From contig JAKQIY010000047.1 in the NCBI GenBank assembly GCA_029561455.1, positions 312,332 through 376,331 on the forward strand: a DNA stretch of 64,000 bases, written 5' to 3'. The position numbers were made by a program, and so were the translations under genes. This DNA is from a bacterium. GTDB taxonomy: Bacteria; Zhuqueibacterota; Zhuqueibacteria; Residuimicrobiales; Krinioviventaceae. This document shows positions 2,607-5,111 of the stretch, one piece after another; positions within the stretch are counted from its first letter, which is position 1; each line of letters starts with the position of its first letter. Under the pieces are notes generated by a model. That model ran no database searches, was not told the origin of the DNA, and saw only the letters and a list, made by a program, of their open reading frames with translations.

Positions 2607-2918
2607 GTAATTATAAGAATAAATGTTACTGTTTTATTACGTTTAATTAAAATGTTTAGAACTTGTGGGTGAGCATGGAAATATTTAATACTTTAAAGCA
2701 TTCAATAACAAGGCAAAACCCCAGCATTCATAGGTGTAATTGCCATTATGTATTGGTGTGATGATGGCATTTTCTTCACAACAGTGAATTGTTAACAATT
2801 TGATGCCATGTTATTGATACTGATATTTTATAATGGAAAATATTTCCAAATGCAATTTTATAAACTTTACCAAATTAAAGAAGATCATGTAAATTTATGG
2901 TATCGTAAATAATAGTTT
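2607..2918. other. AT-rich intergenic stretch, nothing recognised
   Basis: No plausible ORF, tRNA or strong hairpin seen, apart from short local inverted repeats such as GAATTGTTAACAATT. Base composition matches the AT-rich operon to the left and changes near the REPIN-like element at 2919. Confidence 0.5.
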
Positions 2919-3027
2919 GTAAATGGGGGATTTCCCTTTGTGTTTGACAATATTTAAATTGTTATAAAATATTTGAAATTGTTTGAAAATTAGAGTAAAA
3001 TTATTATAGGGAGATCCCCCATCCTAC
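2919..3027. repeat. REPIN-like palindromic element, copy 1 (RAYT-1 family)
   Basis: The left arm is TGTAAATGGGGGATTTCCC, the right arm GGGAGATCCCCCATCCTAC. The arms are inverted and enclose an AT-rich core. The right arm read in reverse begins GTAGGATGGGGGAT, with the GTAG tetranucleotide typical of RAYT-mobilised REPs. The core beside the left arm (CCCTTTGTGTTTGAC) matches the element at 4049. Confidence 0.75.
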
Positions 3028-3097
3028 TACTACCTTACCAAGTGTTTGCAGGGGAGTACGTAAAAAACAATATGCTTTTAAAGTGCAATATTAGTTG

Positions 3098-4027
3098 ATG
3101 AAGAATGGAAAATTACATATGATTATGAACTTACCAACCTCAGAAGATTACTTCCAATCCGGAAGAGAACTGCTCAATTTCGCGTGGGATACAACCTCCG
3201 ACCTTTTAACTGAATTTGATCAAGCTGATTATTACGGTTTCGCACAAGAAGAAATCTCAGAACAATACTGGGCAGCTGCCAAGAGGACACTCACTACATC
3301 TCTTGCGATTGTGCAGCAAGGTGTCGAATTCTTACTAAAAGGGAAGATTGCAGAAATTTCTCCCTATTTATTAATTTCTGATCCCCCATCTCGTTGGCCT
3401 TCACCGTATGAAAATCACGCAATAGATTTTTCAACTTTTCGCACTGTTGATGCTCAGGATTTAATACGAATCCATGATACGTTTTCTATCTTACCGCTTA
3501 GCATTTCCTTTGCAGAGAAATTTCATTCGTTGCGCGAGAGAAGAAATGTCATCATGCATTCTCCTGGGAACGGAATTACTGTGCACGTCACAGAAGTAAT
3601 TGAGGCTATTCTATTTGTGTATAAGGCACTATTCCCAAAGGAGAACTGGCCAACGATTAGAAGAAAATTTCTTGAAAGAGGTCCAAATTCAGAATTAGGG
3701 GGAGGAGATTACGCAACAAACCGAGCATGCTGGGAGATTTCGATAATATTGAGTCTCCTTAAACCCACTCAGGTCAAGGCTTTCCTTGGGATTGATCCAA
3801 AGCAACGTGCTTATTTCTGTCCTAAGTGCTTGAACATGGCAAACACTGATGCTGGTTTTGATTTCCCTCTGGCGGTACTACGCCCAAAAAGTATTTCGGC
3901 GACACGGTTGTATTGCCCTGTATGTAATGAGGAACATGAAGTTAAGAGACAGGGTTGTGAAAAGAAAGGTTGCCCGGGTAATGTCATTGATCCAGAATAT
4001 AGTACTTGCCTTACATGCGGTTTTTAA
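3098..4027 (+). CDS. HEPN-like protein with C-terminal zinc ribbons
   Basis: About 310 residues. The helical N-terminal two-thirds contains RNVIMH (R149-N150-x3-H154), which fits the R-N/H-x3-H active-site motif of HEPN ribonucleases, in a helix context (FHSLRERRNVIMHS) typical of the family. The C terminus holds paired Cys motifs: CPKC with CPVC, then CEKKGC with CLTC, forming two likely zinc ribbons for nucleic acid or protein contact. Known HEPN proteins are often metal-independent RNases in toxin or defence systems, but some act only as adaptors. Start is uncertain: an in-frame TTG 3095, ATG 3098 and ATGs at 3119 and 3125 all lack a strong Shine-Dalgarno. The gene lies exactly between two homologous REPIN-like elements and just upstream of a RAYT transposase, which suggests joint mobility. 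No antitoxin is visible next to it. Confidence 0.6.
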   Translation: MKNGKLHMIMNLPTSEDYFQSGRELLNFAWDTTSDLLTEFDQADYYGFAQEEISEQYWAAAKRTLTTSLAIVQQGVEFLLKGKIAEISPYLLISDPPSRWPSPYENHAIDFSTFRTVDAQDLIRIHDTFSILPLSISFAEKFHSLRERRNVIMHSPGNGITVHVTEVIEAILFVYKALFPKENWPTIRRKFLERGPNSELGGGDYATNRACWEISIILSLLKPTQVKAFLGIDPKQRAYFCPKCLNMANTDAGFDFPLAVLRPKSISATRLYCPVCNEEHEVKRQGCEKKGCPGNVIDPEYSTCLTCGF

Positions 4028-4048
4028 CCCTGGTACCCAATCGGGTTT

Positions 4049-4156
4049 TGTAGAATGGTGGATTTCCCTTTGAGTTTGACGGTGTTTTAATTGTAACAAA
4101 ATGTGTGAATTGGGTTGATGATTAAAATAAAACATAATTGGGGAAATCCCCCATCT
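4049..4156. repeat. REPIN-like palindromic element, copy 2
   Basis: Begins TGTAGAATGGTGGATTTCCC and ends GGGGAAATCCCCCATC in inverted orientation. It shares the CCCTTTG-GTTTGAC segment and an AATTGTAACAAAATGTGTGAATT-type core with copy 1 at 2919. It fills the gap between the HEPN gene (stop at 4027) and the RAYT gene. Confidence 0.75.
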
Positions 4157-4194
4157 TTCAAGTCGAAGTAATAAATATTTTAAAAGGGGAATTT

Positions 4195-4749
4195 ATGACA
4201 CAATATCAAAGATTATATATTCCAGGTGGGACCTATTTTTTTACATTGGTAACCTATAACCGTAGACGTCTTTTTGATGTTCCTGATGCTCGGCAGGTTC
4301 TAAAGGAAGTGTGGAAATCCGTACAAACAAAATACCCGTTTACACTCGATGCCTTTTGTTTATTACCGGATCATTTGCATTGTATGTGGACATTGCCGGA
4401 AAATGATTCACAGTATTCAAAAAGATGGAACCTTATAAAAGGATTATTTTCAAAAAAGTATCAACCTGAAATAAATGATTACATCAAAAAATGTGATTCT
4501 CGTATTAAAAAGCAGGAAGCAACATTTTGGCAGCGACGGTTTTGGGAGCATTATATTCGAGATGAAGATGATTTTGAAAAGCATTTTGATTATATCCATT
4601 ATAATCCGGTTAAGCATGGATATGTAAAAAATCCGATTGATTGGGAATGGTCAACATTTGCCAAGTATTTGCACATGGGTAATTATGAACCGGATTGGGG
4701 TGTAATAGAATCAAAACAAATTATCGAATTAAAAAGTACAGGTGAATAA
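4195..4749 (+). CDS. REP-associated tyrosine transposase (RAYT), Y1 HUH family
   Basis: 184 aa. It has the family hallmarks in order: GGTYFFTLVTYNRR at the N terminus, the metal-binding pair as LPDHLHCMWTLP (His-Leu-His), WQRRFWEHYIRDEDD, then YIHYNPVKHGYV with the catalytic Tyr region, and WSTF. RAYTs are domesticated IS200/IS605-type single-strand transposases that recognise GTAG-tagged REP hairpins and are thought to spread them. ATG 4195 was chosen because AGGGG lies 6-7 bases upstream; the longer in-frame extension runs back into the REPIN element. REPIN-like elements flank it at 4049, 4791 and 4981. Confidence 0.93.
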   Translation: MTQYQRLYIPGGTYFFTLVTYNRRRLFDVPDARQVLKEVWKSVQTKYPFTLDAFCLLPDHLHCMWTLPENDSQYSKRWNLIKGLFSKKYQPEINDYIKKCDSRIKKQEATFWQRRFWEHYIRDEDDFEKHFDYIHYNPVKHGYVKNPIDWEWSTFAKYLHMGNYEPDWGVIESKQIIELKSTGE

Positions 4750-4790: not shown

Positions 4791-4897
4791 TGTAGGATGG
4801 GGTCTTGCCCGTTGTAAAGGAAAGTATCTTTAATTACGAACAGCATTTGCCAAAAACACATATCCAGAATAATGCAATGTCAGGGCAAGACCCCATC
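4791..4897. repeat. REPIN-like element, copy 3
   Basis: TGTAGGATGGGGTCTTGCCC on the left is inverted on the right as GGGCAAGACCCCATC (ends 4897), with an AT-rich spacer. GTAG precedes the hairpin arm. It lies 40 bp after the RAYT stop codon. Confidence 0.75.
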
Positions 4898-4980
4898 GAA
4901 CGTTGAGATTGTTAATTTAAATGGTAGCACATAAGAGGATGTTGTTAAATTGGAACAATGCTTGCTTTTTGTGTAATTAT

Positions 4981-5094
4981 TGGTGTGATGGGGGCTTGAC
5001 CTCCATATATGAAAATATTTAAGCCTTGCTTCGATGATATATACACCTGTTTTATTTGATATCATGCAAATATCGGTCAAGACCCCATCCTACA
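4981..5094. repeat. REPIN-like element, copy 4
   Basis: The left arm is TGATGGGGGCTTGACC, the right arm GGTCAAGACCCCATCCTACA. The right border read in reverse (TGTAGGATGGGGTCTTG) is the same as the left border of copy 3, so copies 3 and 4 share one REP type. Confidence 0.7.
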
Positions 5095-5111
5095 AAAAAT
5101 TCCGAATTGTA

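Follow-up and report, generated by a model that had tools for sequence, protein, structure and literature searches.

The window analysed here is a 64,000-nucleotide stretch of a 5.85-Mb bacterial genome (KSB1), covering positions 312332–376331 of contig 36 (C36). Close to its left end a RAYT (TnpA_REP) gene lies beside a gene for a HEPN-like protein that is enclosed by two REPIN-like elements. The RAYT gene (window positions 4195–4749, + strand) encodes 184 aa in an intact frame and matched the NCBIfam family REP_Tyr_transpos (NF047646), scoring 190 bits where the cut-off is 80 (2.1e-56). The HEPN-like gene (3095–4027, + strand) is bounded on its left by element E3 (2918–3027, + strand) and on its right by E4 (4050–4159, + strand), upstream of the RAYT gene. 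A first-pass annotation had placed homologous elements at 2919–3027 and 4049–4156 with the RAYT gene following immediately; both points were confirmed, the element borders being right to within a few bases. The array of elements reaches leftward past the window edge, where it was invisible to that annotation, and two more copies, E1 and E2, were found there in a 19-kb sequence around the window's left end (L039; window position = L039 position minus 12332). The gene order was a dehydrogenase gene, E1, genes for a 180-aa protein and a DJ-1/PfpI protein, E2, genes for a 271-aa protein, a Prenyltransf-like protein, a small protein and a TPR protein, E3, the HEPN-like gene, E4, the RAYT gene, E5 with a further inverted repeat, and a large gene on the opposite strand. 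The anchor genes of the array, labelled by recognition alone, are presumably a dehydrogenase gene and a GH97 gene. The RAYT gene and all cargo genes of at least 150 aa share one orientation.

E1 (C36:310177–310291), E2 (C36:311708–311820), E3 and E4 are about 110 bp each, lie in the same orientation and have inverted arms flanking an A+T-rich core; these four direct copies fall within 6.4 kb upstream of the RAYT gene (C36:310173–316494). E2 and E4 begin with GTAG, given as the head of REPs in passages of PMC3733652 and PMC8266576, while E1 begins with GCAG and E3 has GTAA. Global identities among the four were 0.67–0.82, as against 0.49–0.52 in shuffled sequence, and the most alike pair was the outermost two, E1 and E4 (82%). 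For E3 and E4 the value was 0.76 (shuffled, 0.50, sd 0.03), and an ungapped alignment of 2922–3023 with 4054–4155 gave 75% identity across 102 nt. A more diverged repeat pair, missed by the first-pass annotation, spans 4791–5101 on the 3′ side of the RAYT gene: E5 (4791–4908, + strand, beginning TGTAGGATGGGG, with a GTAG head and perfect 15-bp inverted arms) belongs to a diverged subfamily and forms the downstream REP pair together with a second repeat (4987–5101, − strand) whose right arm is the inverse of the left arm of E5 (28 nt, 96%). On DNA folding the arms paired in every element, with z-scores of −1.2 to −2.9 for E1–E4 and −5.1 for E5; E3 gave −2.5 and E4 −1.4, so that the fold of E4 taken alone is unexceptional. 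Searches of the whole genome with the E3 sequence, the E4 sequence and the arm pattern allowing two mismatches gave no convincing further copy of the E1–E4 family.

RAYT genes with flanking REPs or REPINs have been termed REPtrons (as set out in parts of PMC8266576, PMC6006769, PMC3733652 and PMC2817692). The KSB1 locus resembles them in having a RAYT of the REP_Tyr_transpos family (a Y1 HUH enzyme), GTAG-headed palindromes on both sides of it and inverted REP pairs. It differs in that its elements form a direct array whose intervals hold foreign genes, and in that all its copies lie at most 6.4 kb from the RAYT gene, whereas cognate REPs are usually, not universally, dispersed over the genome; Marinomonas is a published exception to such dispersal, according to a passage in PMC8266576. 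The host genome holds other RAYTs (six matches above the family cut-off) with their own, different repeats. One of these (L056:15183–17693, on C46) is 48% identical to the RAYT described here, has a different REP family and is followed directly on its 3′ side by a gene for a KAP-like P-loop ATPase.

The HEPN-like frame has 310 codons from a TTG, and the ATG at 3119 (302 aa) is the likelier start, since homologues begin at Met9. The first-pass annotation had proposed a HEPN protein from an RNVIMH motif at residues 149–154, and this was borne out by the conservation of the motif (residues 150–155 of the 310-codon frame) and by the modelled fold. RNxxMH (R150, N151, M154 and H155) was invariant in all seven aligned sequences, the KSB1 protein included. 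No usable family was found for the frame in Pfam, NCBIfam or PADLOC, and neither phmmer nor a profile search against PDB sequences yielded a relevant match. Single-sequence structure prediction reached a pLDDT of 38, and an alignment-based model (mean pLDDT 65, core ~80; pTM 0.67) was used for fold comparison. The top match was HepT (6m6w; Z 10.2 over 126 residues, 3.9 Å, 7% identity), and further HEPN matches (1wwp, Z 9.4; 1jog, 9.1; 5yep, 9.0; 8xeh, 8.8) were interspersed with other helical bundles at Z 8–9; Foldseek alone gave no hit for the model at E ≤ 0.001. Because helical bundles can reach such Z values by chance, the assignment is carried by motif and fold jointly. Together they indicate that the bracketed gene encodes a HEPN domain, the model being closest to HepT toxins. 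The likeliest role of the protein would be that of an abortive-infection RNase or a toxin. HepT, of the MntA-HepT pair, and other HEPN toxins share with it the helical fold and the RxxxxH motif; unlike HepT, the KSB1 gene has no neighbouring MNT antitoxin gene and its product has an extra C-terminal region of Cys pairs, so that HepT is a fold neighbour only. The C-terminal zinc ribbons proposed earlier were upheld as far as the Cys pairs, which are present, whereas no Pfam zinc-ribbon model reached its cut-off there.

Homologues of the HEPN protein were detected by tblastn on 19 of 72,556 plasmid records (25–38% identity; coverage of 80% or more in 17) and, with profile patterns, on five viral contigs; tblastn found none in phage records, and peptide patterns found none in the genome contig collection. 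Ten plasmid regions were inspected, and the neighbours there included VapBC, integrases, a Swt1-type HEPN protein, Qat genes, a restriction endonuclease and a dynamin-like GTPase. None of 59 relatives carried a homologue. The refuting condition named in the first-pass annotation, conservation of the HEPN gene in related genomes that lack the flanking repeats, therefore did not arise among them, but distant homologues without repeats do exist. From its plasmid homologues, their neighbours and its absence from the 59 relatives, the gene is of a kind that accompanies defence genes, and it was probably acquired horizontally. The HEPN gene and the RAYT gene are adjacent on the same strand with E4 between them, as they would be if the HEPN protein were a partner of the RAYT, e.g. 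guarding or regulating it. We regard such a functional pair as very improbable: no RAYT was annotated beside the plasmid homologues in the ten regions, and other RAYT loci hold other, unrelated cargo.

A comparison of filled and empty states was provided by a family of cyanobacteria in which 5 of 217 genomes carry the RAYT concerned at the threshold chosen. In Calothrix, Rivularia and Richelia this RAYT (89–94% identical to that of Calothrix) lies beside chlH (CobN/Mg-chelatase by Pfam); the other two carriers (G213 and G133) proved to have their RAYT at different sites. In all three genera the chlH terminator region joins an element starting GTAGGGTGCTG, and an element ending CAGCACCCTAC joins the RAYT leader. 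In Calothrix this start and this end belong to one single element with nothing between. Richelia has two elements with a PspA-like gene between them, and Rivularia three, the interval holding an AIPR/AbiU gene, the middle element and a 172-aa gene. Downstream of the RAYT gene, further copies enclose HicAB in Richelia, a HicB-like gene in Calothrix and no gene in Rivularia. The cargo lies on both strands. Thus the outer junctions are preserved and the content between them varies, and the site looks like the gain or loss of units each made of an element and a gene. The simplest direction of change is loss through recombination between direct repeats.

These junctions bear on a rival explanation, in which the RAYT inserted into a variable island and amplified its REPINs on the spot, so that whatever gene is present comes to be flanked. 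REPINs are intergenic in any case; passages in PMC8266576 describe Marinomonas REPs as concentrated near tnpA_REP and probably multiplied in its vicinity, and in PMC2817692 REP-like repeats are described as scattered between genes around a Stenotrophomonas RAYT. At the cyanobacterial site, however, the chlH-side and RAYT-side elements begin at corresponding positions with the cargo exactly between them, and independent insertions would need identical edges. Moreover, copies of at least 79% identity over ~200 nt occur only at these RAYT sites (5, 3 and 3 copies, among the matches listed); diverged copies (68–75%) and arm-only pieces are dispersed over the cyanobacterial genomes, again among the matches listed. 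We consider incidental bracketing a possible explanation of the KSB1 array, on the doubtful side.

Element pairs enclosing different genes, whose existence the first-pass annotation had left to be checked, were found in the KSB1 array itself, of which the three cargo segments between the four copies have 45, 29 and 41% G+C, and at other RAYT loci. For the latter, 101 loci were scanned, comprising 19 stretches from the host's class (11 of 63 genomes matched), 80 genome contig loci and the host's own two; subtraction of eight contigs fetched twice and one identical RAYT left 92 distinct loci. Most of these were ordinary REPtrons, with repeats immediately up- and downstream of the RAYT gene. A distal copy was defined as a match of at least 60 nt to the 500 bp beside the RAYT gene, lying more than 500 bp away. 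Distal copies occurred in 24 of the 92 loci and in 24 of 394 random segments; since two segments were used per RAYT locus and one 500-bp segment per control trial, the corrected expectation is ~11 of 92 and the excess about twofold, not fourfold.

Seventeen of the 24 loci had an open reading frame (ORF) between copies. The seven without countable cargo were L134 (ORF overlapping the RAYT gene), L138 (a second RAYT only), L153 and L187 (no ORF), L167 and L192 (single ORFs of 64 and 77 aa, judged spurious) and L201 (an inverted copy only). In 8 of the 17 cargo loci, a toxin-antitoxin (TA), restriction or abortive-infection gene lay between the copies, by Pfam matches above cut-off: HicA and HicB in Richelia; a HicB-like gene in Calothrix; AIPR in Rivularia (AbiU in PADLOC, 7.5e-128); a type ISP restriction enzyme in Poribacteria; TumE in Brocadia; ParE in Brocadia carolinensis; a DNA methylase with BglII in Chloroflexi; and an MmeI/Eco57I-type enzyme in Omnitrophota, where similar genes lie outside the copies too and an element copy lies inside the ORF. 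The other cargo comprised a caspase/FGE protein, HU-like, eCIS-core, glutaredoxin and TPR proteins and signalling or unknown proteins. Some short ORFs of the cargo loci were left unscanned. The flanking set scanned covered 28 of 30 chosen ORFs, two chlH copies being omitted, and the KSB1 locus contributed none. Defence or TA assignments were made for 10 of 34 scanned cargo and 2 of 28 scanned flanking proteins (Fisher p 0.050), or by locus 8 of 17 versus 2 of 16 (p 0.057), under criteria fixed after the cyanobacterial cases had been seen. At L138:9261–10600, two adjacent RAYTs (57% and 54% identical to the query) are separated and flanked by one repeat family, indicating that a RAYT can itself occupy a slot. 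At L147:4068–8408 an element copy lies within an otherwise open 1447-codon MmeI/Eco57I-like frame, a possible in-frame REPIN insertion. This copy inside a restriction ORF fits insertion rather than slot filling, and so favours incidental bracketing.

Similar neighbourhoods were seen in Brocadiaceae, where 8 of 33 genomes had close relatives of the Brocadia RAYT. Nine of 11 listed places were inspected by Pfam within ~3.1 kb of the RAYT gene, some ORFs being left unscanned, and TA or modification genes were found in seven: ParE twice in L283, ParE between elements in L285 (on the same contig as L160), BrnT in L286, a DNA methylase in L287, ParE in L288, VapB in L290 and Fic/DOC in L291. Among the ORFs scanned, L284 and L289 gave no such match. 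As a background rate for these genomes is lacking, the counts serve as an illustration rather than a test.

In E. coli, the replacement of a REPtron by a TA operon is cited in a passage of PMC6006769. The rayT site between yafL and flhA (L263–L270) held rayT, HicAB or neither, depending on the strain; HicA or HicB was annotated there in 11 of 40, among the matches listed, and DinJ-YafQ upstream of the site was also variable. The alternation of rayT with HicAB resembles the exchange of cargo considered here, but in E. coli no REPs border the HicAB block. The site was rejected as a further filled/empty comparison: HicAB and DinJ-YafQ vary, but not at REPs. In one strain (L267) rayT is gone and the upstream and downstream REP DNA is fused, which shows that recombination between REPs removes intervening DNA.

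We favour, at little better than even confidence, the reading that the KSB1 locus is a REPtron turned into a small gene-collection site, with cargo entering and leaving at the repeats of the locus itself. Several observations weigh against it. For the KSB1 array itself, neither an empty state nor a differently filled one was found; the filled/empty comparison exists in cyanobacteria. At the cyanobacterial site, gain is not proven because Calothrix could be a deletion product. In nine of the 17 cargo loci, Pfam assigns nothing clearly to defence or TA; the KSB1 HEPN gene, as cargo, falls in no Pfam family. The enrichment of cargo for defence and TA genes is borderline and suggestive only, p rising to 0.22 if two flanking Uma2 genes count as defence. 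Distal copies were in direct orientation in 37 of 41 cases; all 24 control repeats were direct too, as tandem duplication would give, so that orientation is not diagnostic and no longer counts towards a cassette mechanism. In the single genome of the same genus, the Suf operon comes after an anchor gene and the best match of the downstream anchor is on another contig; this genome was rejected as an empty site, being a synteny break only.

Gene collection at the KSB1 locus might proceed as follows. The RAYT would multiply REPINs around itself, giving direct repeats that divide the upstream stretch into slots. A foreign gene would enter between two copies, or arrive bringing a copy with it, the plasmid-type HEPN-domain gene being the entrant in the KSB1 slot. 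Recombination between copies would afterwards delete or swap such cargo while leaving the anchor genes and the RAYT gene in place. Physically, the likeliest step would be an exchange between direct copies that depends on RecA; RAYT nicks at hairpins might initiate it, as the RAYT could cut folded REPs. TA, restriction and abortive-infection genes are frequent movers and would often turn up in such slots. We infer the direction of change and the responsible enzyme; the present data are equally compatible with RAYT action and RecA action.

A more active role for the enzyme would be the movement of cassettes by the RAYT itself, through single-strand excision and insertion of units made of an element and a gene, like IS200/IS605 or integron cassettes. 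RAYT cleavage and rejoining of folded REPs has been shown for other RAYTs (passages in PMC6006769 and PMC8266576), and at KSB1 the elements fold, E2, E4 and E5 carry GTAG, the RAYT frame is intact and direct units adjoin it. Against this, the analysis turned up no circle, no target specificity and no other site holding that cargo unit, and recombination between repeats explains the data equally; we consider such movement quite unlikely. IS200/IS605 elements with a passenger share the Y1 HUH enzyme and subterminal hairpins, whereas the KSB1 locus is a multi-copy array with the RAYT at one end and no sign that the whole moves; neither a second genomic site with the same unit nor an empty KSB1 site was found. 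Integron cassette arrays likewise have variable genes separated by related single-strand-folding sites, and the one-strand orientation of the larger KSB1 cargo genes recalls them; they differ in that the KSB1 separators are REPINs, not attC, and in that the cyanobacterial cargo lies on both strands. No canonical R/L box pair of attC (RYYYAAC/GTTRRRY) occurs on either strand of the 19-kb L039, and no IntI integrase was recognised by eye among its ORFs, no hidden Markov model search of the genome having been made. The earlier interpretation, which saw either a passenger gene between mobile ends or a RAYT locus with a captured toxin-like gene, is partly supported: capture is its best-supported form, movement of the gene as a unit by the RAYT is quite unlikely, and a private RAYT–HEPN partnership lacks support.

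The remaining segments of the array hold further features. The rest of the E2–E3 segment (1–2543, + strand; 29% G+C), which starts upstream of the window, contains the tail of the 271-aa protein gene, the Prenyltransf-like gene (703–1353, + strand, by Pfam), the small protein gene and the TPR protein gene (1563–2543, + strand, by Pfam). The small protein and the TPR protein (1379–2543) have a similar short stretch, GKNSINLMADRDI and GSNSINIIGKRV respectively, noticed by eye, and together with the Prenyltransf-like protein they may form an unknown conflict system. Past the TPR gene, ~100 nt before E3, an inverted pair (CAATAACA/TGTTATTG, 2704–2815) could be a decayed element or site. Upstream of the window, inside the E1–E2 segment, an attC-like site (L039:10923–11011, C36:310922–311010; boxes GCTAACA and TGTTAGC) overlaps the stop codon of the 180-aa gene and is not at an element. 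Two matches to the relaxed attC motif were found where 0.9 were expected, so that by itself it carries no significance. The 180-aa gene has homologues on plasmids of Vibrio, Pseudomonas and others, and an integron cassette may have been captured within the array.

No published description of RAYT loci gathering genes between REPIN copies was found in the literature searched, outside which lay most subscription journals and all work present on bioRxiv only. That RAYT/REPIN loci are a widespread gene-capture platform, at which the RAYT itself inserts and exchanges REPIN-bounded cassettes, rich in TA, restriction and abortive-infection genes, at folded REPs, is in our view unlikely; if true, it would offer a reason for the retention of the ‘domesticated’ RAYT. 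Loci such as the KSB1 array may act as gene collecting points, whose slots often hold defence or TA genes. For comparative and experimental work, the cyanobacterial chlH–RAYT site is a system already to hand. Should RAYT loci prove to gather defence and TA genes regularly between their own repeats, they would confer a testable benefit on the host, and unknown defence genes, e.g. the HEPN family described here, could be sought in a location not considered before.
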